Notes under the pieces: generated by a model | Told to the model about the DNA's origin: nothing | Seen by the model: only the letters and a program-made list of their open reading frames with translations | Database searches by the model: none | Translations under genes and position numbers: made by a program | Assembly (NCBI RefSeq): GCF_002407065.1 | Contig: NZ_CP023564.1 | Span: forward strand, 682,001-746,000 | Reading direction: 5' to 3' | Origin: Brachybacterium ginsengisoli | GTDB taxonomy: Bacteria; Actinomycetota; Actinomycetes; Actinomycetales; Dermabacteraceae | Length of the DNA: 64,000 bases | Shown: positions 1 to 10,646 of the stretch, piece after piece | Layout: each line of letters begins with the position of its first letter | How positions within the stretch are numbered: position 1 is the first letter of the stretch

Positions 1-1997
1 AGCGCGCCGGAGACCAGCACCGTGCGGTGGCCCGCGGCGCGGTGGCGCTCGATGGTCTCGAGCGCCTCCGGGCGGATGGAGGCGCGGATGCGGCGCCCGG
101 CCTCGCCCTGCATCAGAGCGCGGAGGTCCTGGCTGCGGAAGCCCTTGTAGCGGCGGTTGACCAGGCGGATCAGCTCCGAGCGGTCACGCTGGTCGGCGCG
201 GAGGTAGCCGGGCACCGCGGCGAGCAGGCCGCCGATCTCGGCGGGCCAGGTGCGGCGCGGCTTCGTGGCACGGACCACCGAGAAGTACTGCTGGACGATG
301 TTCGTGGCCAGCACGGTGCCGTCGAGGTCGAAGACGGCCAGGGAGTCGGGGGACTCCTTGAGCGCGCGGGCAGGGCGCGAGGCGCGCTTGTTCTGCGCGG
401 ACTTCGCCCGCGAGTACGCCTTGGTGAGCTCGGTGACCGCCGGGAGGTGCTGGTCCTGGAAGTAGTCCTTCCAGACCAGGCCCTCGATGTCGAAGTCGTG
501 GGTGGCCAGGAACTCCGGCGACAGCTCCTCGCGCAGCGCGCGGGTGTTGGCGTCGTCGAAGACCATCTCGGTCTTCGTGTAGTGGCGGTAGAGCTCGATG
601 TACTTGCGCAGCATCGTCAGCCCCGAGGTGGCCTTGTGCAGGCCGGAGGTCCACTCGCGGGTGCGCTTGGTGGCGGGCAGGTAGGCGACCGCGGCGGAGC
701 CCAGCTTCGCCGAGAGCTCCTTGGCGCGGAACCGCTGCTCGACCATCTCCACGGCGGGGAAGGACCACTCGGGCACCTGGATCGGCCGGCCCTTGTCGTC
801 CTCCAGCGGGTGCGCCACGAAGTACTCGCGCACCGCCGTGACCATCTCGTGGAAGGGCAGCGGGTTGGAGGCGCCGGAGACCACCTGGTAGTAGGCGTCG
901 TCACCGCGGCGGGAGACCTCCTGGGTGGCCAGCGCGACGATCACGTTGACGACGTGGTCCACCGGGATGACGTCGAGGATCGAGTCGGCCAGGCCCGGGA
1001 ACTCGGGAAGCATGCCGCGGCCGTAGGCCATGATCAGCGGGTCGGCGACCTTGTAGCCGTCGATCCAGCCCGGGTAGGGCTTCGTCACGGCGGACTCGAT
1101 GATGGAGGGCCGCACGAAGGAGACGCGGTGGCCGTTGCCGGCCCACAGCTCCTCGGCGACCTGCTCGGCCATCGCCTTGGTGAAGGTGTAGATGTCGGTC
1201 CAGCCGACGGACTGCGCGCGGGTGCGGCCGAAGTCGATCAGGCGATCGTCGACCCACTCGCGACGGGAGTCCTCGGAGGCGGTGGCGACGGACTTGGGGC
1301 CCATGCGGCCCACGCGCACCTTCGCGGCGCGGATCTGGGAGCGCAGGGTCTCGGGCCGGCGCGACTCGGCCTCGACACGGGCGCGGGCGGCGAGCGCGGC
1401 CTCGTACTCGGCGCGCCAGTCGACGTCGGCCTGGAGGGAGCCCTCCTGGCGCAGACCCTTGGAGATGCCGCCGACATAGGCGGTGGAGACGTGGATGACG
1501 TGCGGGTCCTGGCCGGAGGCGAGCAGGGCCTCGTAGAGGTTCCGCGCTCCGCCGACGTTGGTGCGGAAGGCCTCGTCGATCGGCGGGTCGAAGGACACCG
1601 AGGACGCGGAGTGGATCACGACGTCGACGGGGTCGGTGATCGCGGGCATGTCGGTGAGGTCGCCCTCGAGCACCCCCACGCGAGTGTCGAAGATCTGCTT
1701 CAGGCGGGCCTTGCCGTCGACCGGCTCCCCGCCCTCCTCGGACTCCGCGGCGCTGATCAGATCGGCCCAGGAGGAGAAGACGGGCTTGCGCAGCAGCTGC
1801 TCGAGGCGCTTGCGCCCGGTGACCGAGCCCTTGGGGCGCACCACGGCGGTGACGTGGACGTCCTCGGTGCTCTCCAGGAGCGATCGCAGCACGGCCTGGC
1901 CCAGGAACCCGGTCACGCCGGTCAGAAGGATCCGACGGCCCCCGCTGGTCGAGCCGCCGGCGGCGGGCTGAACGGCGGGCGAGGTGCTGTGCGTCAT
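1..1997 (-). CDS. Fatty acyl-CoA reductase-like / HAD-IB phosphatase fusion (3' end outside window)
   Basis: About 665 codons are visible; the C-terminus lies beyond position 1. The N-terminal half is an extended SDR/NAD-binding-4 reductase: dinucleotide motif TGVTGFLG at residues 26-33 and a catalytic YTFTK (YxxxK) near residue 270, with the helical C-terminal region typical of fatty acyl-CoA reductases. A HAD-IB phosphatase follows, with motif I FDLDGTV near residue 555 and a motif II-like VLVSGA at the window edge. The family reduces acyl-CoA to fatty alcohol; the HAD part resembles SerB/PlsC-linked phosphatases. It is divergent from the SDR, acyltransferase and alkyl-DHAP synthase genes, which suggests fatty alcohol supply for ether lipids (inference). 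A third domain, such as an acyltransferase, could follow outside the window. The ATG at 1997 is the first in-frame start. Confidence -1.
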   Translation of the reverse strand, partial: MTHSTSPAVQPAAGGSTSGGRRILLTGVTGFLGQAVLRSLLESTEDVHVTAVVRPKGSVTGRKRLEQLLRKPVFSSWADLISAAESEEGGEPVDGKARLKQIFDTRVGVLEGDLTDMPAITDPVDVVIHSASSVSFDPPIDEAFRTNVGGARNLYEALLASGQDPHVIHVSTAYVGGISKGLRQEGSLQADVDWRAEYEAALAARARVEAESRRPETLRSQIRAAKVRVGRMGPKSVATASEDSRREWVDDRLIDFGRTRAQSVGWTDIYTFTKAMAEQVAEELWAGNGHRVSFVRPSIIESAVTKPYPGWIDGYKVADPLIMAYGRGMLPEFPGLADSILDVIPVDHVVNVIVALATQEVSRRGDDAYYQVVSGASNPLPFHEMVTAVREYFVAHPLEDDKGRPIQVPEWSFPAVEMVEQRFRAKELSAKLGSAAVAYLPATKRTREWTSGLHKATSGLTMLRKYIELYRHYTKTEMVFDDANTRALREELSPEFLATHDFDIEGLVWKDYFQDQHLPAVTELTKAYSRAKSAQNKRASRPARALKESPDSLAVFDLDGTVLATNIVQQYFSVVRATKPRRTWPAEIGGLLAAVPGYLRADQRDRSELIRLVNRRYKGFRSQDLRALMQGEAGRRIRASIRPEALETIERHRAAGHRTVLVSGA

Positions 1998-2149
1998 GGG
2001 ATCCTCTGTGGACGGGTACGGCGGGGTGCTCTGGGCGGCTCGCAGGCGCGCGATCCGGGGACGGGCCGACGGTGCGCGAGGCCCTGCGCGCTTCCCACCA
2101 GGGAGCTTCTCCGCGCTGGTCAGGGCGTCGCTAGTGTATCGTAGCCGCC

Positions 2150-2926
2150 ATGCATAGGGCCCTGATCACCGGCGGCACTGCAGGAATCGGGGCCGCCTTC
2201 GCCAGAGCGTTCGCGGGCCGTGGGACGGCCCTCGTGCTGGTCGCGCGGGATGCCGATCGCCTCGCCGAGTCCGCCGCGCAGCTGCGTCGCGAGTTCGGAG
2301 TCGAGGTCGAGACCCTCGCCGCCGACCTCTCCGATCGCGATGCGCAGCAGCGCGTCGCCGACCGTCTCGCGACCTCCGACGCGCCCGTCGACGTCCTCGT
2401 CAACAACGCCGGGTTCTCCGTGCGATCGAGCCTGCTCGACGAGGACATCTCCCAGCATGACCTCGGCTTCGAGGTGATGATCCGCGCCGTGCTCAAGCTC
2501 GGCGGCGCGGCTGGCCGGGCGATGAGCGAGCGCGGGCACGGCTGGATCATCAACGTGGGATCCGTCTCGGCGCTGGTGACCCAGAACAACTACTCCGCGA
2601 TCAAGGCCTGGGTGGGCAACTACTCCGAGTCCCTGGGCGTGCAGCTCTCCAGCACGGGCGTGCAGGTGACGGCGCTGATGCCGGGCTGGGTGCGCACCGA
2701 GTTCCACTCGCGTGCCGGCATCAAGGGCTCCTCCATCCCCGGTCCCCTCTGGTTGGATGCAGAGCGCCTCGTCGAGGACTGCCTGCGCGACGTGGCCCGC
2801 GGCAAGCCGGTCTCCATCCCCTCGACCCGGTGGAAGCTGATCGCGGCGGTGCTGCGCACCACGCCGCGCGGTCTTGTCGCCCGGCTGAGCGCGCTGCTCA
2901 GCCATCGTCGCAACCGGGAGAAGTGA
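2150..2926 (+). CDS. Short-chain dehydrogenase/reductase
   Basis: A classical SDR of 258 aa. The NADP-binding motif TGGTAGIG is at residues 7-14, NNAG at 85-88, the catalytic Ser around 138-140, and the YSAIK (YxxxK) pair at Y148/K152. It is soluble with no signal peptide and resembles DltE/YqjQ-type SDRs. It starts the plus-strand run SDR, acyltransferase, alkyl-DHAP synthase, with only 4 bp to the next gene. By analogy to ether-lipid synthesis it is a candidate acyl/alkyl-DHAP reductase; the sequence alone does not fix the substrate. The start is the ATG at 2150. Confidence -1.
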   Translation: MHRALITGGTAGIGAAFARAFAGRGTALVLVARDADRLAESAAQLRREFGVEVETLAADLSDRDAQQRVADRLATSDAPVDVLVNNAGFSVRSSLLDEDISQHDLGFEVMIRAVLKLGGAAGRAMSERGHGWIINVGSVSALVTQNNYSAIKAWVGNYSESLGVQLSSTGVQVTALMPGWVRTEFHSRAGIKGSSIPGPLWLDAERLVEDCLRDVARGKPVSIPSTRWKLIAAVLRTTPRGLVARLSALLSHRRNREK

Positions 2927-2930
2927 TCGC

Positions 2931-4010
2931 TTGACCTCGAAGGACATCCCGCAGACCCCCGAGCCCGAGGGGTCCGACGGCGTGGCCGGCGACCCGGGCG
3001 ATCTCGGCGGCGTCGGCCCCGGCGAGGCCATCGAGGCGCCGGAGCTCGAGGACGAGCAGGCGGAGCCCGGCTCGATCGCCCCCGCCGCGTCCGCTGCGTC
3101 CGCCGCGACGCCGCAGTCCCCGGATCAGGAGTCTCCCGATCGGGAGGCCGCCGCGACGGAGGATGCTGCGCCCGAGGGCGACGCCGCGGACTCCCCGGCC
3201 CCGGAGCGATCCGCCCGGACCGCGGGGGAGGACCTCCGTGAGAGGTCCAAGGCTCTGCTGGGGTCGCTGTCGGCCCGCTCCCGTGGCGAAGGCTGGGAGC
3301 GCCCCGAGGGGGAGCTGGCCAAGTACCGCTCCCGCTGGCGGGCGGCGGTGCGGTTCGTCCTGCAGCGCGGCTTCTTCGGCGCGGTGGTCGCCTCGAACCT
3401 CACCACCTCCCGCGAGGTGCACCGCCGGGTGCGCACCGTGCGGGGACCGTTCGTGCTGGTCGCGAACCACTCCAGCCATATCGACGCCCCCATGCTGGCG
3501 CGCTGCCTGCCCTGGGCCCAGGCGCGGTTCCTCTCCACCGGCGTCGCGGCGGACTACTTCTTCACCGTCTGGTACCGCCGGCTGTTCGTGCGCCTGCTGT
3601 TCAACGCCTTCCCGATCGACCGCGGCGGCTCCCGCAGGCACTCCGGCACCTCGCGCAAGCTGCTGCGCTCCGGTGTGCCGATCCTCGTCTTCCCCGAGGG
3701 GACCCGCCAGCTGGACGGCGTGCTCGCCGACTTCAAGCCCGGCGGCGCGGCGCTCGCGATCAGTGTGGGTGTGCCCGTCATCCCCGCCGCGATCATCGGC
3801 GCCCACGAGGCGATGCCCAAGGGGCGCAGCTGGCCGAAGCCAGGCCGCCCGCCCGTGCGCGTCGTCTTCGGCGAGCCGATGATCTCCGAGGTGGGCGAGA
3901 CCGCGGTCGAGTTCTCGACCCGGATCCACGCCCGCGTCAAAGACCTGTACGACGAGCATCGAGATGTGATCCTGGGCGATGCCGCCCGGGGCGAGGAGGG
4001 TTCCGCATGA
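2931..4010 (+). CDS. PlsC-type glycerolipid acyltransferase with acidic disordered N-terminus
   Basis: A protein of 359 aa starting at TTG 2931. Residues 1 to about 120 are low-complexity Glu/Asp/Ala/Pro; the catalytic domain follows. Acyltransferase block I is NHSSHID (H180, D185, the HxxxxD pair), a substrate loop lies around FPIDRGGS (227-234), and FPEGTR is at 254-259. These are the hallmarks of 1-acylglycerol-3-phosphate and DHAP acyltransferases. The stop overlaps the next start as ATGA, so it is translationally coupled to the alkyl-DHAP synthase homologue. That supports a role in making acyl-DHAP or in acylating the alkyl product (inference). A start inside the acidic region cannot be excluded. 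Confidence -1.
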   Translation: MTSKDIPQTPEPEGSDGVAGDPGDLGGVGPGEAIEAPELEDEQAEPGSIAPAASAASAATPQSPDQESPDREAAATEDAAPEGDAADSPAPERSARTAGEDLRERSKALLGSLSARSRGEGWERPEGELAKYRSRWRAAVRFVLQRGFFGAVVASNLTTSREVHRRVRTVRGPFVLVANHSSHIDAPMLARCLPWAQARFLSTGVAADYFFTVWYRRLFVRLLFNAFPIDRGGSRRHSGTSRKLLRSGVPILVFPEGTRQLDGVLADFKPGGAALAISVGVPVIPAAIIGAHEAMPKGRSWPKPGRPPVRVVFGEPMISEVGETAVEFSTRIHARVKDLYDEHRDVILGDAARGEEGSA

Positions 4011-5713
4011 GCGATCGGCTGAGCGCACGCGAGGTCAAGCGGCACAAGTGGTGGGGCTGGGGCCTGGACGACGTCACCTTCCGCTACGACAACAAGCCGG
4101 CCTTCCCGGCCCTGGCGAAGAACAAGGTGGGCGTCGACCTCGACTCGAAGCAGCCGGTCGAGCCGGACCTGTCGGACCTCGAGGTGCCCGCCTCGCAGCT
4201 CCCCGCCGCGGTGCGCGCCCTGCTGGTGGACGTGGTGGGCGAGGAGAACGTGCTCGACGACGACGAGTACCGCGTCGTCCACTCCTTCGGCCGCTCCCTG
4301 CCGGACCTGTTCCGGGTGCGGGGCGGGCACTTCGACCGCCTGGTCGACGCGATCGTGTACCCCGTCTCCGAGGCCGAGGTCGCCGCGATCCTGCGCGTGG
4401 TCCTCGAGCAGGACCTGGTGCTGATCCCCTACGGCGGCGGCTCCTGCATCTCCGGCTCCGTCACCCCCGACGCGGCCGAACAGCGTCCGATCCTCACCAT
4501 GAACCTCGGCCGCATGCGCGAGGTGATCGAGATCGACGACACCGCGGGCCTGGCCCGGGTGGAGGCCGGCGTGTACGGTCCGGACCTCGAGGAGCAGCTC
4601 AACGCCCTGGGATGGACCGTCGGCCACTTCCCCGACTCCTTCACCTACTCCACCCTCGGCGGCTGGGCGGCGACCCGCTCCTCCGGGATGCAGTCGGACA
4701 AGTACGGCGACATCGAGGACATCGTGCGCGGGATGCGTCTGGTCCATCCCGAGGGCGTCGCGGTCACCAAGCCGATCCCTGGTCGTGATTCCGGCCCGAG
4801 CGTGCACGAGATGATCCTGGGCAGCGAGGGCCGCCTGGGCGTGATCACCGAGGCGACCGTGCAGGTGCACCGCCTCGCCCCGGTCCGCCAGGTCATCGCC
4901 TACATGTACCCCGACTGGGAGCACGGCATCCGCGGCATGCACGCGATCGCCCGCTCCACGGACGTGACCCCCACCTTCACCCGTCTCTCGGACGGGCCGG
5001 AGACCGAGTTCAGCCTGTCGATGGTCAAGGAGCCCAGCTCGACCAAGGGCAAGGTGGCCGCGAAGGTGCAGGACGGCCTGTTCGCGTACCTGCGCTCCAA
5101 GGGCTGGGACACCACCAACGAGATGTCGATCTCCTACGTCTGCTTCGAGGGCTCGAAGGAGTCCGTCGAGCAGCAGAAGGCGATCGTGAAGAAGATCGTG
5201 AAGAACGCCGGCGGCATCACCCTCGGCGCCGGCCCCGGGGCGATCTACGACCAGAAGAAGTTCGACACCCCGTACCTGCGGGACTTCCTGATGAACTACC
5301 AGGTCTTCGGCGACGTGTGCGACACGGGCGCGACCTGGTCGGACATCAACGAGGTCCACTCCACGGTCTACGACGCGTTCTACGCAGTCCAGGAGCAGCA
5401 GGGCCTGCCCGGCTTCATGTTCTGCCACATGTCGCACAGCTACCACGCCGGGGCCTGCCTCTACTTCACCTTCGCCTTCCCGTACTCCTCCGAGGAGCAG
5501 GCGCTCGACCAGTACTACGCGGCCAAGCGCGCGGTGCAGCAGGCCTTCGTGGACCTCGGCTCCACGGTCTCCCACCACCACGCCGTGGGCACGGAGCACC
5601 AGCCCTGGATCACCCAGGACATCGGTGAGGTCGGGACGCGCATGGTCCAGGGCCTGTTCGCCGCCAACGACCCGGGGCGGAACCTGAACCCCGGCAAGGT
5701 CACCACCCCCTGA
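4007..5713 (+). CDS. FAD-dependent alkyldihydroxyacetonephosphate synthase (AGPS-like)
   Basis: A protein of 568 aa with an N-terminal FAD_binding_4 domain and a C-terminal FAD-oxidase C domain. The FAD motif PYGGGSCISG is at 141-150. Regions strongly reminiscent of eukaryotic AGPS are GHFPDSFTYSTLGGW (about 206-220), a SGM..YGDIEDIV stretch just after, SHSYHAGACLYF, and the histidine-rich active-site SHHHAVG at 522-528. AGPS exchanges the acyl chain of acyl-DHAP for a fatty alcohol, forming the ether bond without net redox change. With a fatty acyl-CoA reductase, an SDR and an acyltransferase next door, this assignment is preferred over a generic lactate/glycolate oxidase. ATGA overlap with the upstream gene. 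Confidence -1.
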   Translation: MSDRLSAREVKRHKWWGWGLDDVTFRYDNKPAFPALAKNKVGVDLDSKQPVEPDLSDLEVPASQLPAAVRALLVDVVGEENVLDDDEYRVVHSFGRSLPDLFRVRGGHFDRLVDAIVYPVSEAEVAAILRVVLEQDLVLIPYGGGSCISGSVTPDAAEQRPILTMNLGRMREVIEIDDTAGLARVEAGVYGPDLEEQLNALGWTVGHFPDSFTYSTLGGWAATRSSGMQSDKYGDIEDIVRGMRLVHPEGVAVTKPIPGRDSGPSVHEMILGSEGRLGVITEATVQVHRLAPVRQVIAYMYPDWEHGIRGMHAIARSTDVTPTFTRLSDGPETEFSLSMVKEPSSTKGKVAAKVQDGLFAYLRSKGWDTTNEMSISYVCFEGSKESVEQQKAIVKKIVKNAGGITLGAGPGAIYDQKKFDTPYLRDFLMNYQVFGDVCDTGATWSDINEVHSTVYDAFYAVQEQQGLPGFMFCHMSHSYHAGACLYFTFAFPYSSEEQALDQYYAAKRAVQQAFVDLGSTVSHHHAVGTEHQPWITQDIGEVGTRMVQGLFAANDPGRNLNPGKVTTP

Positions 5714-5718
5714 GCGCC

Positions 5719-6312
5719 GTGACCAGCCGAGTCCTGGTGCTCCGCCACGGCGAGTCCACCGCGAACGTCGAGGGCCTGATCGTCTCCGTCCCCGGTCCTC
5801 GCGCCCTGACGGAGGTGGGCCTGACCCCGCTCGGCCGCGAGCAGGCGCGCCGGGCCGCGGCCCAGGGCCTCGCCCAGGGTCTGGGGCCGGGGACCGTGGT
5901 GATCTCGAGCGACTTCGCGCGGGCGCTGCAGACCGCCGAGGAGTTCGCCGCGGGGATCGGCGCCGCCGCGCCCCGCGTGGACGAGCGGCTGCGCGAGCGC
6001 AGCTTCGGCGGGTACGACGAGGGGCCCGCGAGCGCGTACGACGAGGTCTGGCGGGTCGACCGCGGGCGCGGCACCCACGAGGGCGGGGTCGAGCAGGTCG
6101 CGGCCGTCGCCGCGCGTGTGCTCGCCGTGCTCCGGGAGGCCGACGACCTCGCCAGCACGGCGCCGGTGGTGCTGGTCGCCCACGGCGACGTCCTGCAGAT
6201 CGCGCTCGCGCTCGGCGCCGGGGCCGACCCGCACGAGCACCGCGACGTGCCGCACCTCGGCAACGCCGAGCTGCGGGAGATCGGCGCGGGTCGGGACGCC
6301 GCCGGCTCATGA
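5719..6312 (+). CDS. Histidine phosphatase family protein
   Basis: A protein of 197 aa from GTG 5719. The phosphoglycerate-mutase-like fold is shown by LRHGEST (catalytic His10), a second arginine in SSDFARALQTAEE, the acid-containing RSFGGYDEG, and the second catalytic histidine in VAHGDVLQ (about H155). Such enzymes dephosphorylate small metabolites; the substrate is not readable. It lies 5 bp after the alkyl-DHAP synthase gene and may be cotranscribed with it, so a role on a phosphorylated lipid intermediate is possible but unproven. Its stop overlaps the next gene by ATGA. Confidence -1.
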   Translation: MTSRVLVLRHGESTANVEGLIVSVPGPRALTEVGLTPLGREQARRAAAQGLAQGLGPGTVVISSDFARALQTAEEFAAGIGAAAPRVDERLRERSFGGYDEGPASAYDEVWRVDRGRGTHEGGVEQVAAVAARVLAVLREADDLASTAPVVLVAHGDVLQIALALGAGADPHEHRDVPHLGNAELREIGAGRDAAGS

Positions 6313-8875: not shown

Positions 8876-9420
8876 GCGTCACCCTGACGCGTCTGGACCC
8901 GACCGGTGCGGATCGCTCCGCGCTGGTCGGGTTCATGTCCCGCAACGAGTTCCCGTTCCACGTGCGCTCGCGCCCGCGCGCCGCGGACATCGAGGGCCTC
9001 ATCGACAAGGGCGCCTACCGCGACGAGGACAACGACTCGTTCTGGATCGAGCACGGGGAGCTGGGTCGAGTGGGCTTCCTGCGCCTGGAGGACCTCAGCG
9101 ACGGCGATCCGATGTTCGACCTCCGCCTGGACGCTCCGTTCCGCGGCCGCGGCCTGGGCGCCGAGGTGCTCCGCGCCCTGGCCGACCACGTCTTCGGGAC
9201 CATGCCGGGCGTGAACCGCATCGAGGGCCAGACCCGCGAGGACAACGTCCCCATGCGCCGGACCTTCCTGCGCAGCGGCTGGGTCAAGGAGGCGCACTAC
9301 CGGGAGGGCTGGCCGGTGGACGGCGGCGCCCCGCTCGCCTCGGTCGCCTACAGCATCCTGCGGCGCGACTGGGAGACGGGGACGACGACCGAGCTGGTCT
9401 GGGACGACCTGGAGCTCTGA
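8872..9420 (+). CDS. GNAT family N-acetyltransferase
   Basis: A protein of 182 aa from GTG 8872, overlapping the upstream stop as GTGA. The GNAT acetyl-CoA loop is FRGRGLGAEVLRALADH (Q/RxxGxG/A type), followed by the beta-5/alpha-4 region RIEGQTREDNVPMRRTFLRSGW. It resembles RimJ/RimL-type proteins acting on small molecules or protein N-termini. It is the third gene of the ThuA operon and converges with the cation-efflux gene, whose end is 5 bp away. Confidence -1.
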   Translation: MSVTLTRLDPTGADRSALVGFMSRNEFPFHVRSRPRAADIEGLIDKGAYRDEDNDSFWIEHGELGRVGFLRLEDLSDGDPMFDLRLDAPFRGRGLGAEVLRALADHVFGTMPGVNRIEGQTREDNVPMRRTFLRSGWVKEAHYREGWPVDGGAPLASVAYSILRRDWETGTTTELVWDDLEL

Positions 9421-9425
9421 CGGGC

Positions 9426-10646
9426 TCAGCGTGCTGTGGGCCGCTCCGCGTCCGACGGCTCCGCGTCCGACGGGCTCGCGTCCGACGGGCTCGCCGTCAC
9501 CAGCACCCCGGCACGATCCAGGTGGGGCAGCTCCTGCTGCAGCCTCTCCTCGATCCGGTCGACGAGCAGCTGTGAGCTCCCGACGCTGAGAGCCGGGTCG
9601 ACCTGCACGCTCACCTCGGCCTCGAGGCGGTGCCCGATCCAGCGGGCGCGGGCGCCGCTCACGGCGAGGACGCCGGGAACGGCGGCGGCCGTCTCGATCC
9701 GGTCCAGGGTGCCGGGCTCGACGCCGTCCATCAGACGGTGGATGACCGTGCGCATCGAGCTGATCAGCACCAGGACCACCATCACGGCGATGCCGAGGCC
9801 GATCACGGGGTCGATCCAGGGCAGACCCATCCAGGCGCCGAGCACGCCGATGATCACGGCGAGCGAGGTCAGCGCGTCGGTGCGGGCGTGCTGGCCTTCG
9901 GCGATCAGCGCCGCGGAGCTGATGCGACGCCCGGCGCGGATCCGGTAGCGCGCGACCATCTCGTTCCCGGCGGCGCCGATGACGGCGGCGGCGAGCACCC
10001 AGCCCAGATGGGACATGTCCCGTGCTGTCGTCAGCGCGGTCACCGACTCCCACACGATCAGCGCCGCGGACAGCGCGATCACGGCACCGATCAGGAGCCC
10101 CGCCAGGTCCTCGGCGCGCCGGAAACCGTAGCTGTAGCGACGGGTGGGGATGCGGCGGCCCAGGCGGAAGGCGATGATCAGCGGGATCGTGGTGGCGAGA
10201 TGGCCGAGGTTGTGGAGGGTGTCGGCCAGCAGCGCGACGGAACCGCTGAGGGCGACGATGACGATCTGGAGCAGCGCGGTGGCGCCCATGCCCGCCAGGC
10301 TGATCCAGGCGGCGCGGATCCCGATCGCGCTGGACTCCTCGGCGGTGCGGATCGCCTCGCCGTGGTCGTGGCTGTGCGGGGTCAGCGCGTGCCGGATCCG
10401 CGCCCAGGCGGAGGTGCAGTGGACGTGCTCGTGCGGATGGTCGTGTCCGTGTCCGTGTCCGTGTCCGTGTCCGTGTCCGTGTCCGTGTCCGTGGTCGTGG
10501 CTGTGATCGTGCCCGTGCCCGTGACTGTGCGGCCCGCCGTGATCGTGCCCGTGCCCGTGACTGTGCGGCCCGCCGTGATCGTGCTCGTCGTGGGGTCCGC
10601 CGGCAGGGGAGGGGGCGGGATGCTGGTGCTGGGAGGAGTCGGTCAC
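9426..10646 (-). CDS. Cation diffusion facilitator (Zn2+/Cd2+ efflux type) with histidine-rich N-terminus
   Basis: A protein of 406 aa. Residues 1 to about 95 are dominated by His-Gly/His-Asp repeats that can bind metal; six membrane segments and a cytoplasmic C-terminal domain follow. The TM5 metal site HARTD is the canonical HxxxD. The TM2 site reads HNLGH, where most zinc CDFs have HxxxD, so it carries a His in place of Asp. The C-terminal tail has SPSDA/EPSDAE repeats. It is divergent from an ArsR regulator with an inverted repeat between them, so metal-responsive control is likely. The likely role is export of zinc or a similar ion. Confidence -1.
   Translation of the reverse strand: MTDSSQHQHPAPSPAGGPHDEHDHGGPHSHGHGHDHGGPHSHGHGHDHSHDHGHGHGHGHGHGHGHGHDHPHEHVHCTSAWARIRHALTPHSHDHGEAIRTAEESSAIGIRAAWISLAGMGATALLQIVIVALSGSVALLADTLHNLGHLATTIPLIIAFRLGRRIPTRRYSYGFRRAEDLAGLLIGAVIALSAALIVWESVTALTTARDMSHLGWVLAAAVIGAAGNEMVARYRIRAGRRISSAALIAEGQHARTDALTSLAVIIGVLGAWMGLPWIDPVIGLGIAVMVVLVLISSMRTVIHRLMDGVEPGTLDRIETAAAVPGVLAVSGARARWIGHRLEAEVSVQVDPALSVGSSQLLVDRIEERLQQELPHLDRAGVLVTASPSDASPSDAEPSDAERPTAR
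10443..10574. repeat. Tandem repeats encoding the His-rich tail
   Basis: Eight copies of the hexamer gtgtcc run from 10443 to 10490. A perfect 36-bp tandem duplication follows, with units at 10503-10538 and 10539-10574. Both lie inside the cation-efflux gene and encode its His/Gly/Asp-rich N-terminus. The units are multiples of 3, so copy-number change would lengthen or shorten the metal-binding tail without a frameshift. Confidence -1.

Follow-up and report, generated by a model that had tools for sequence, protein, structure and literature searches.

A probable ether-lipid locus in Brachybacterium ginsengisoli

The first genes of a 64,000-nucleotide stretch of the Brachybacterium ginsengisoli chromosome (the window; G000:C1:682001-746000 of a 3.95 Mb genome in one contig) probably encode the synthesis of glycerol ether lipids by the dihydroxyacetone phosphate (DHAP) route, as in peroxisomes, from a chromosomal locus. 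The locus consists of genes for a homologue of AGPS, which we propose to be the ether-bond-forming flavin adenine dinucleotide (FAD) enzyme, a fatty acyl-CoA reductase (FAR), a PlsC-type acyltransferase and a classical short-chain dehydrogenase/reductase (SDR). The family identity of these proteins, their catalytic residues, the arrangement of the genes, its conservation and the co-occurrence of the genes are established from the sequence.

All four genes are adjacent, in the places given by an earlier first-pass annotation of this DNA. The SDR gene (2150..2926, +) is followed after a gap of 4 bp by the PlsC gene (2931..4010, +, TTG start), which overlaps the AGPS gene (4007..5713, +) in an ATGA at 4007-4010. 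The FAR gene is divergent, starting at 1997 on the minus strand, and its start is separated from that of the SDR gene by 152 bp (1998..2149), which presumably hold the promoters for both transcription units. These coordinates agree with the earlier picture of three closely spaced genes on one strand beside a divergent reductase. That account left unmentioned that the reductase gene overruns the window edge: it fills 1..1997 of the window (-), and its final 307 bp lie outside (G000:C1:681694-682000), the whole gene (G000:C1:681694-683997; L004:13694-15997) encoding 767 aa. It also passed over the HAD domain fused to the reductase.

The FAD protein belongs to the AGPS family

The window FAD protein carries FAD_binding_4 (PF01565, 3.2e-32) and FAD-oxidase_C (PF02913, 5.8e-28) domains, and both motifs quoted for it in the first-pass annotation are present. 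When it was searched against all PDB chains, the top matches were the AGPS structures 2uuu (6.7e-97) and 4bby (2.8e-83), which we take to come from Dictyostelium and guinea pig, respectively; the matches also included 4bc7 and 4bca, chains that depart from 4bby at Arg419 and Tyr578. The next protein in the ranking was a glycolate oxidase at 1.6e-17, and solved AGPS chains outrank any other solved FAD oxidase by approximately 65 orders of magnitude.

A maximum-likelihood tree of 32 rows was built from the window protein, 10 of 80 close relatives, 15 proteins from the 60 loci L128-L187, two solved AGPS and four oxidase-type rows; the outgroup comprised glycolate oxidase, LctD and the genome's own paralogues, vanillyl-alcohol oxidase being left out. 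The grouping with D-lactate oxidases that the first-pass annotation had named as a refutation was not seen, as the 28 AGPS rows stood apart from these oxidase rows with 100/100 support, and did so without the longest outgroup row as well. The close actinobacterial proteins formed a clade of 15 rows (100/99), which grouped with the two eukaryotic AGPS and not with the distant actinobacterial ones, albeit weakly (81/76, 90/64).

Furthermore, the active-site residues are those of solved AGPS. Asp303, Thr309, Arg419, Glu471, Arg515, Cys576, Tyr578 and His615-617 (4bby numbering) are all identical in the window protein, where D210, R326, R425, C484, Y486 and H523-H525 are the counterparts of Asp303, Arg419, Arg515, Cys576, Tyr578 and His615-617. 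Glycolate oxidase and LctD differ from 4bby at 8 of these 10 positions, sharing Thr309 and His617 and having a gap at Arg515; the alignment behind this comparison held one badly sliced outgroup row, and AGPS motif counts from a separate alignment agree with it. Arg419, Arg515, Tyr578, His615-617 and Asp303 are, we assume, residues with roles in AGPS catalysis. Arg326, Arg425, Tyr486 and His523-525 of the window protein are invariant over 128-129 aligned AGPS rows, and Asp210 and Cys484 vary. PDB ranking, tree and aligned residues all place the FAD protein in the AGPS family, as first suggested.

The fatty acyl-CoA reductase and its HAD domain

The part of FAR inside the window matches PF07993 (1.2e-46), PF12710 (2.2e-16) and PF03015 (2.7e-9), and the whole protein consists of NAD_binding_4 and Sterile domains fused to a C-terminal HAD-IB domain. 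Its best PDB match is 7eoz (Fatty acyl-CoA reductase; 2e-45) over 505 residues, 18-522. The Rossmann glycines and Y270xxxK274 are intact, with Tyr270 and Lys274 present in 88/88 called relatives. The earlier call of a fatty acyl-CoA reductase is thus upheld, the enzyme being of the alcohol-forming type. This motif count, like those given for AGPS above and for the HAD domain, PlsC and SDR below, covers called genes only, since some genes escaped the gene caller (AGPS in L041 and L139 among them), and the L004 copy was dropped with the window protein serving as the reference row.

Of 83 FAR matches, 81 reach residue 767 and so span the HAD domain. Its nucleophile, Asp557, is found in 88/88 rows; the second Asp, Asp559, is found in 45/88 and is replaced by Glu, Gln, His or Ala in the remaining 43/88. 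By the motifs examined, the phosphatase looks intact in the window protein, and dephosphorylation of alkyl-glycerol-3-phosphate (alkyl-G3P) by this domain is possible. The idea of a conserved and generally required phosphatase was marked down, as the second Asp is not conserved.

A different setting for FAR was seen at L176 and L178, which have FAR and no close AGPS. There, FAR is followed by a zinc alcohol dehydrogenase, a Lar_N (lactate-racemase-like) protein and PlsC cluster genes, with Pfam run on L176 only.

The acyltransferase and the short-chain dehydrogenase

The acyltransferase (PF01553, 9.4e-21) has AGPAT 5kym (2e-15) as its sole PDB match at 0.1, and it scores 60.1 bits against NCBIfam TIGR00530 (cut-off 102.95). 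N179, H180, H183, D185 and the F, P, E and R of FPEGTR are conserved, His180 and Asp185 in 82/82 called relatives. From its sequence, the acceptor may be DHAP or alkyl-G3P, making the protein a candidate for DHAP or sn-2 acylation. The genome has five PF01553 acyltransferases, the window PlsC and four others, and no PlsY (PF02660) was found in it by a search that was positive in 8 of 14 controls. PF01553 enzymes therefore probably perform the first acylations in this organism, which makes acylation of DHAP by a PlsC-type protein plausible.

The SDR (PF00106, 4.4e-36) retains the Rossmann motif, S138 and Y148xxxK152, with Tyr148 and Lys152 in 75/75 called relatives. It matches hundreds of SDRs, the best NCBIfam match being a mycolate reductase at 158 bits (cut-off 380), and we propose a role as alkyl-DHAP (acyl-DHAP) reductase from the gene context.

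Conservation of the gene set

To describe the neighbourhood of AGPS, the best 80 of 290 loci with close relatives were taken, a sample that leans towards close kin; neighbours were counted at 90 bits for PlsC, 140 for SDR and 400 for FAR, with nearness demanded and order not. The four genes are found close together in 70 of the 80 loci. Among these best 80 of 290, the full set occurs in Brachybacterium, Dermabacter, Helcobacillus, Brevibacterium, Kocuria and Jiangella, as well as in Occultella, Ruania, Streptomyces, Actinacidiphila, Frigoribacterium and Oceanitalea. Three of the ten loci short of the full set are truncated where their contigs end (L030, L062 and L078), four in the Propionibacteriaceae are without PlsC beside AGPS (L054, L058, L065 and L076) and three have no FAR nearby (L068, L071 and L077). 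FAR is on the strand opposite AGPS in 62/74 loci and on the same strand in 12/74, where it lies just upstream; L074 has its SDR past FAR, on the other strand. Order therefore varies while the association persists, and since the four-gene set recurs far beyond the genus, it is not a matter of chance.

The association extends to whole genomes. In an order-level sample of 396 genomes from 110 genera, close AGPS (>500 bits) was found in 74 and FAR-HAD (1e-60) in 83, with both in 74, FAR only in nine and neither in 313; the 500-bit line was set after the scores had been seen, and none fall between 405 and 577. At genus level, FAR is present in 18/18 AGPS genera and in five further genera without AGPS (Fisher 1.7e-16), the genus tallies being made by hand and the Fisher tests taking no account of shared ancestry. 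As an internal control, FAR was found in 0/12 of the order genomes with AGPS at 340-405 bits; these represent two genera, with 11 of the 12 from one.

In 17 of the 74 genomes, FAR and AGPS are either more than 10 kb apart or on different contigs; seven of these genomes were looked at. In G464, G437 and G505, the two genes are distant from each other on a single contig; the AGPS flanks are without FAR in G437, G505, G417, G432 and G451, and G690 is fragmented. A PlsC of the locus cluster adjoins FAR in G437, G505 and G451, and adjoins AGPS in G417 and G432. The first-pass grouping of the four families into one system thus holds across neighbourhoods (70/80 loci) and genomes (74/74 AGPS genomes with FAR-HAD), and functional coupling of the four genes is supported.

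Across the phylum, an AGPS-family match at 1e-50 was found in 73 of 396 sampled genomes and exceeded 500 bits in three (the genome itself, G338 and G381). From the 81 listed matches, 40 loci were fetched, and the window proteins served as queries against their neighbours at 1e-5: in 38/40, no FAR or PlsC neighbour of the window type was found at that threshold, and three of the 38 gave weak, distant SDR matches (26-58 bits). In L128 and L129, which belong to the close clade at 49-50% identity, a PlsC-like frame was the one neighbour matched. The distant actinobacterial homologues (29-38% identity) are of the same family, with Arg419, Arg515, Tyr578 and His615-617 conserved in the 11 examined. 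Unlike the window AGPS, all 11 have Glu or Gln at Asp303 and Ser or Ala at Cys576. The distant homologues of the L141-L159 region lie in a conserved cluster of their own (gene clusters 8, 11 and 13 in 19, 18 and 15 loci), whose members, read by eye, we take to be GlpD, TetR, AGPS and a diacylglycerol-kinase-like protein.

Proposed pathway and alternatives

The activities, the sequence of reactions, the end product and whatever the HAD domain may contribute are what we infer from these genes. First, FAR would reduce an acyl-CoA, probably anteiso-C15/C17 in Brachybacterium, to a fatty alcohol. An acyltransferase, either the window PlsC or one of the four other PF01553 proteins, would form 1-acyl-DHAP, and AGPS with its FAD would then exchange the acyl group for the alcohol, with no net redox change, to give 1-O-alkyl-DHAP. 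Reduction of the keto group by the SDR would yield 1-O-alkyl-glycerol-3-phosphate. Finally, a PlsC, that of the window or another, could acylate the sn-2 position, leading to alkyl-acyl phosphatidylglycerol or cardiolipin, or to glycolipids. The description of the locus as a complete pathway was too strong, as an alkyl-acyl lipid requires two acylations and the operon has one acyltransferase.

Several points weigh against this proposal, in addition to the hand tallies, shared ancestry and late-set bit-score line noted above for the co-occurrence counts. The SDR and PlsC functions are not diagnosable from sequence. The nine genomes with FAR and no close AGPS indicate that FAR has other uses, and the four Propionibacteriaceae loci do without PlsC beside AGPS. 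In the window AGPS, Leu469 is replaced by Cys and Ser527 by Val, at positions tied to AGPS function; 2uuu also differs there (Gly and Val). In Myxococcus xanthus, disruption of the AGPS gene MXAN_1676 led to a minor drop in ether lipids, the main route being that of ElbD (PMC9131029). In addition, the lipids reported for Brachybacterium are phosphatidylglycerol, diphosphatidylglycerol, glycolipids and sometimes an unknown phospholipid, and ether lipids go unmentioned in the excerpts of these papers (PMC6090031, PMC10581053, PMC3035206). The methods described there, MIDI fatty acid methyl esters and thin-layer chromatography (PMC6090031, PMC10581053), would not be expected to reveal alkyl ethers.

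It is possible, though we consider it unlikely, that AGPS-family chemistry acts here on another substrate or towards a specialised product, such as a glycolipid anchor, a free alkylglycerol or a signalling lipid, with the HAD domain making alkylglycerol from alkyl-G3P. This would fit the 81/83 FAR matches that run through the HAD domain, the intact motifs in the window protein, the unidentified glycolipids of the genus and the likewise HAD-like ElbB of the myxobacterial ether-lipid operon (PMC9131029). However, with the second Asp kept in 45/88 rows, the phosphatase is not a conserved need, and the active-site residues closely match those of solved AGPS. It is very unlikely that the locus is a composite, in which FAR supplies wax-ester synthesis or some other process with alcohols, beside a separate and possibly decayed AGPS-SDR-PlsC set. 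The divergent FAR of the window, the nine genomes with FAR alone and the 17/74 with FAR more than 10 kb from AGPS or on another contig are in line with such an arrangement, but the 74/74 co-occurrence, the 12 loci with FAR just upstream on the same strand and the family-wide conservation of catalytic residues speak against it. An oxidase of the D-lactate, glycolate or vanillyl-alcohol type that lies in a lipid locus by chance is an extremely improbable reading of the FAD protein, for although the Pfam domains are shared and the best NCBIfam match is GlcD (120.7 bits, far under the cut-off of 567.9), the PDB ranking, the tree and the active-site residues all contradict it and rule out a lactate/glycolate-oxidase identity, and no vanillyl-alcohol oxidase is named among the 14 distinct PDB sequences at 0.001, two of which are named only Oxidoreductase.

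A putative ferritin-like diiron pair

A tandem gene pair elsewhere in the genome, unlinked to the ether-lipid locus, encodes a protein with a diiron-ligand-like set of residues and its partner (G000:C1:3500561-3501628 and 3501621-3502418, +; L188:8062-9129 and 9122-9919). In 25 of the 80 loci, counted over called genes only, FAR has one or two members of this family of approximately 265 aa next to it or close by (for example, L033, L064, L066 and L081), in Brevibacterium, Kocuria, Occultella, Ruania, Streptomyces, Actinacidiphila and Frigoribacterium. The set E47, E79xxH82, E143 and E173xxH176 (L033 numbering) is invariant in 20 aligned members, and the partner protein is without it. No family in Pfam or NCBIfam was above cut-off for the ligand-bearing protein, and the partner had no match; the only Pfam signal was FA_desaturase_2, sub-threshold at 3.1e-4 (6.1e-4 for the copy in this genome), and NCBIfam gave weak ferritin-like signals. 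PDB matches of the family profile were a designed helix bundle (8.2e-6), an RNA-editing protein (8.6e-4) and DesA2 (0.011). From these we infer a ferritin-like diiron fold.

The ligand-bearing protein occurs in 55 genomes of the order sample, 47 of them with close AGPS, and is absent from 27 AGPS genomes (genus-level Fisher 2.0e-9, hand-tallied). Two of the eight genomes that have it without close AGPS have FAR; the other six, from one family, have neither. It is thus associated with the pathway and not confined to it. In Brachybacterium, its gene is present in 22 of 27 sampled genomes.

It is tempting to suggest, as a long shot that we regard as doubtful, that aerobic actinomycetes make plasmalogens (vinyl-ether lipids) by a DHAP route whose last enzyme is a soluble, ferritin-like diiron desaturase of a new type. 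If true, the CarF/PEDS1 function would have been invented a second time, independently, in a diiron protein. PF10520 (CarF/PEDS1) was above cut-off in 0/396 genomes, this one included, in a search that matched in no control either, and we do not claim its absence; G614 has one sub-threshold fragment of 39 positions with stops.

The protein might also serve as an acyl desaturase, as a hydroxylase or as an unrelated oxygenase. Summed feature 8 is usually C18:1. The table of one Brachybacterium paper seems to include this feature (PMC6090031), and cyclo-C19:0, which implies an unsaturated precursor, is a main fatty acid of Brachybacterium equifaecis (PMC10581053). These signs of unsaturated or cyclopropane fatty acids in two papers make ordinary acyl desaturation a live alternative. 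Brachybacterium faecium is reported to be without unsaturated fatty acids (PMC3035206), which argues against bulk acyl desaturation.

Neighbouring genes

A gene for a histidine-phosphatase family protein (5719..6312, +; PF00300, 1.9e-29) begins 5 bp past the AGPS stop. Of the 80 loci, 19 have such a gene behind AGPS at a score of at least 200 bits; 18 belong to Brachybacterium and one to a metagenome-assembled genome whose AGPS is 93% identical to that of the window; the AGPS of Brachybacterium massiliense is 92% identical. It is doubtful whether the histidine phosphatase belongs to the pathway. What reads by eye as a TetR-like regulator turns up close to the locus 22 times, in Kocuria and Occultella among others (gene cluster 6; for example, L044:2344-2919 and L064:797-1366).

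Significance and comparison with known systems

The gene set in so many related bacteria predicts ether lipids in common aerobic actinobacteria, for which we found no report of such lipids. It spans common, easily grown actinomycetes from Brachybacterium to Kocuria, Jiangella and Streptomyces, and would offer genetically simple models of the FAR-AGPS pathway. In human rhizomelic chondrodysplasia punctata type 3, the gene for AGPS is mutated (PMC4151185). It also bears on the origin of eukaryotic AGPS. The rarity suggested by the first-pass annotation for an aerobic actinomycete needs correcting: AGPS homologues in Actinobacteria have already been reported, among the actinobacterial and other hits of a Black Sea metagenome screen (PMC11868695). 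No description of the actinobacterial gene set was found, among the matches listed, in the open-licence literature on ether lipids, plasmalogens or dimethyl acetals of Brachybacterium, Kocuria, Brevibacterium, Streptomyces, Propioniciclava, Jiangella, Ruania, Dermabacter and Rubrobacter, on AGPS of actinobacteria or mycobacteria, or on a diiron plasmanyl desaturase in actinobacteria.

The locus can be set beside three known systems. PF09989 is a domain carried by PlsA/PlsR; no PF09989 protein was found in the genome by a search positive in 4 of 14 controls, which argues against the anaerobic PlsA/PlsR route. That route and the Ger enzyme also make bacterial ether lipids, by ester-to-ether reduction, a chemistry that differs from that of AGPS (PMC9702350, PMC11868695). 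The animal peroxisomal pathway comprises FAR1, GNPAT, AGPS and PexRAP/DHRS7B (PMC9131029). We propose the same four functions for the window genes, of which AGPS and FAR are clear homologues of the animal proteins, with the same AGPS active-site residues. In contrast, the window acyltransferase is PlsC/AGPAT-like, FAR carries a HAD domain and there is no organelle.

Experimental support for a bacterial AGPS gene was found only for Myxococcus, in whose operon MXAN_1676-1674 the genes encode AGPS, a FAR-acyltransferase fusion and an NAD-epimerase (PMC9131029). Compared by description and not by sequence, AGPS, FAR, an acyltransferase and an NAD-dependent oxidoreductase stand together in both organisms. 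In Myxococcus, FAR and the acyltransferase are fused and the oxidoreductase is of the epimerase/dehydratase type, whereas the Brachybacterium locus has FAR-HAD, PlsC and a classical SDR each as a gene of its own; a fusion of the MXAN_1676-1674 type is absent from the window locus, where FAR is fused to HAD instead. The elb operon of M. xanthus also includes a HAD protein, ElbB, as a counterpart to the HAD domain on FAR here. Our best reading is that the Brachybacterium gene set is a variant of the kind of pathway proposed for MXAN_1676-1674.

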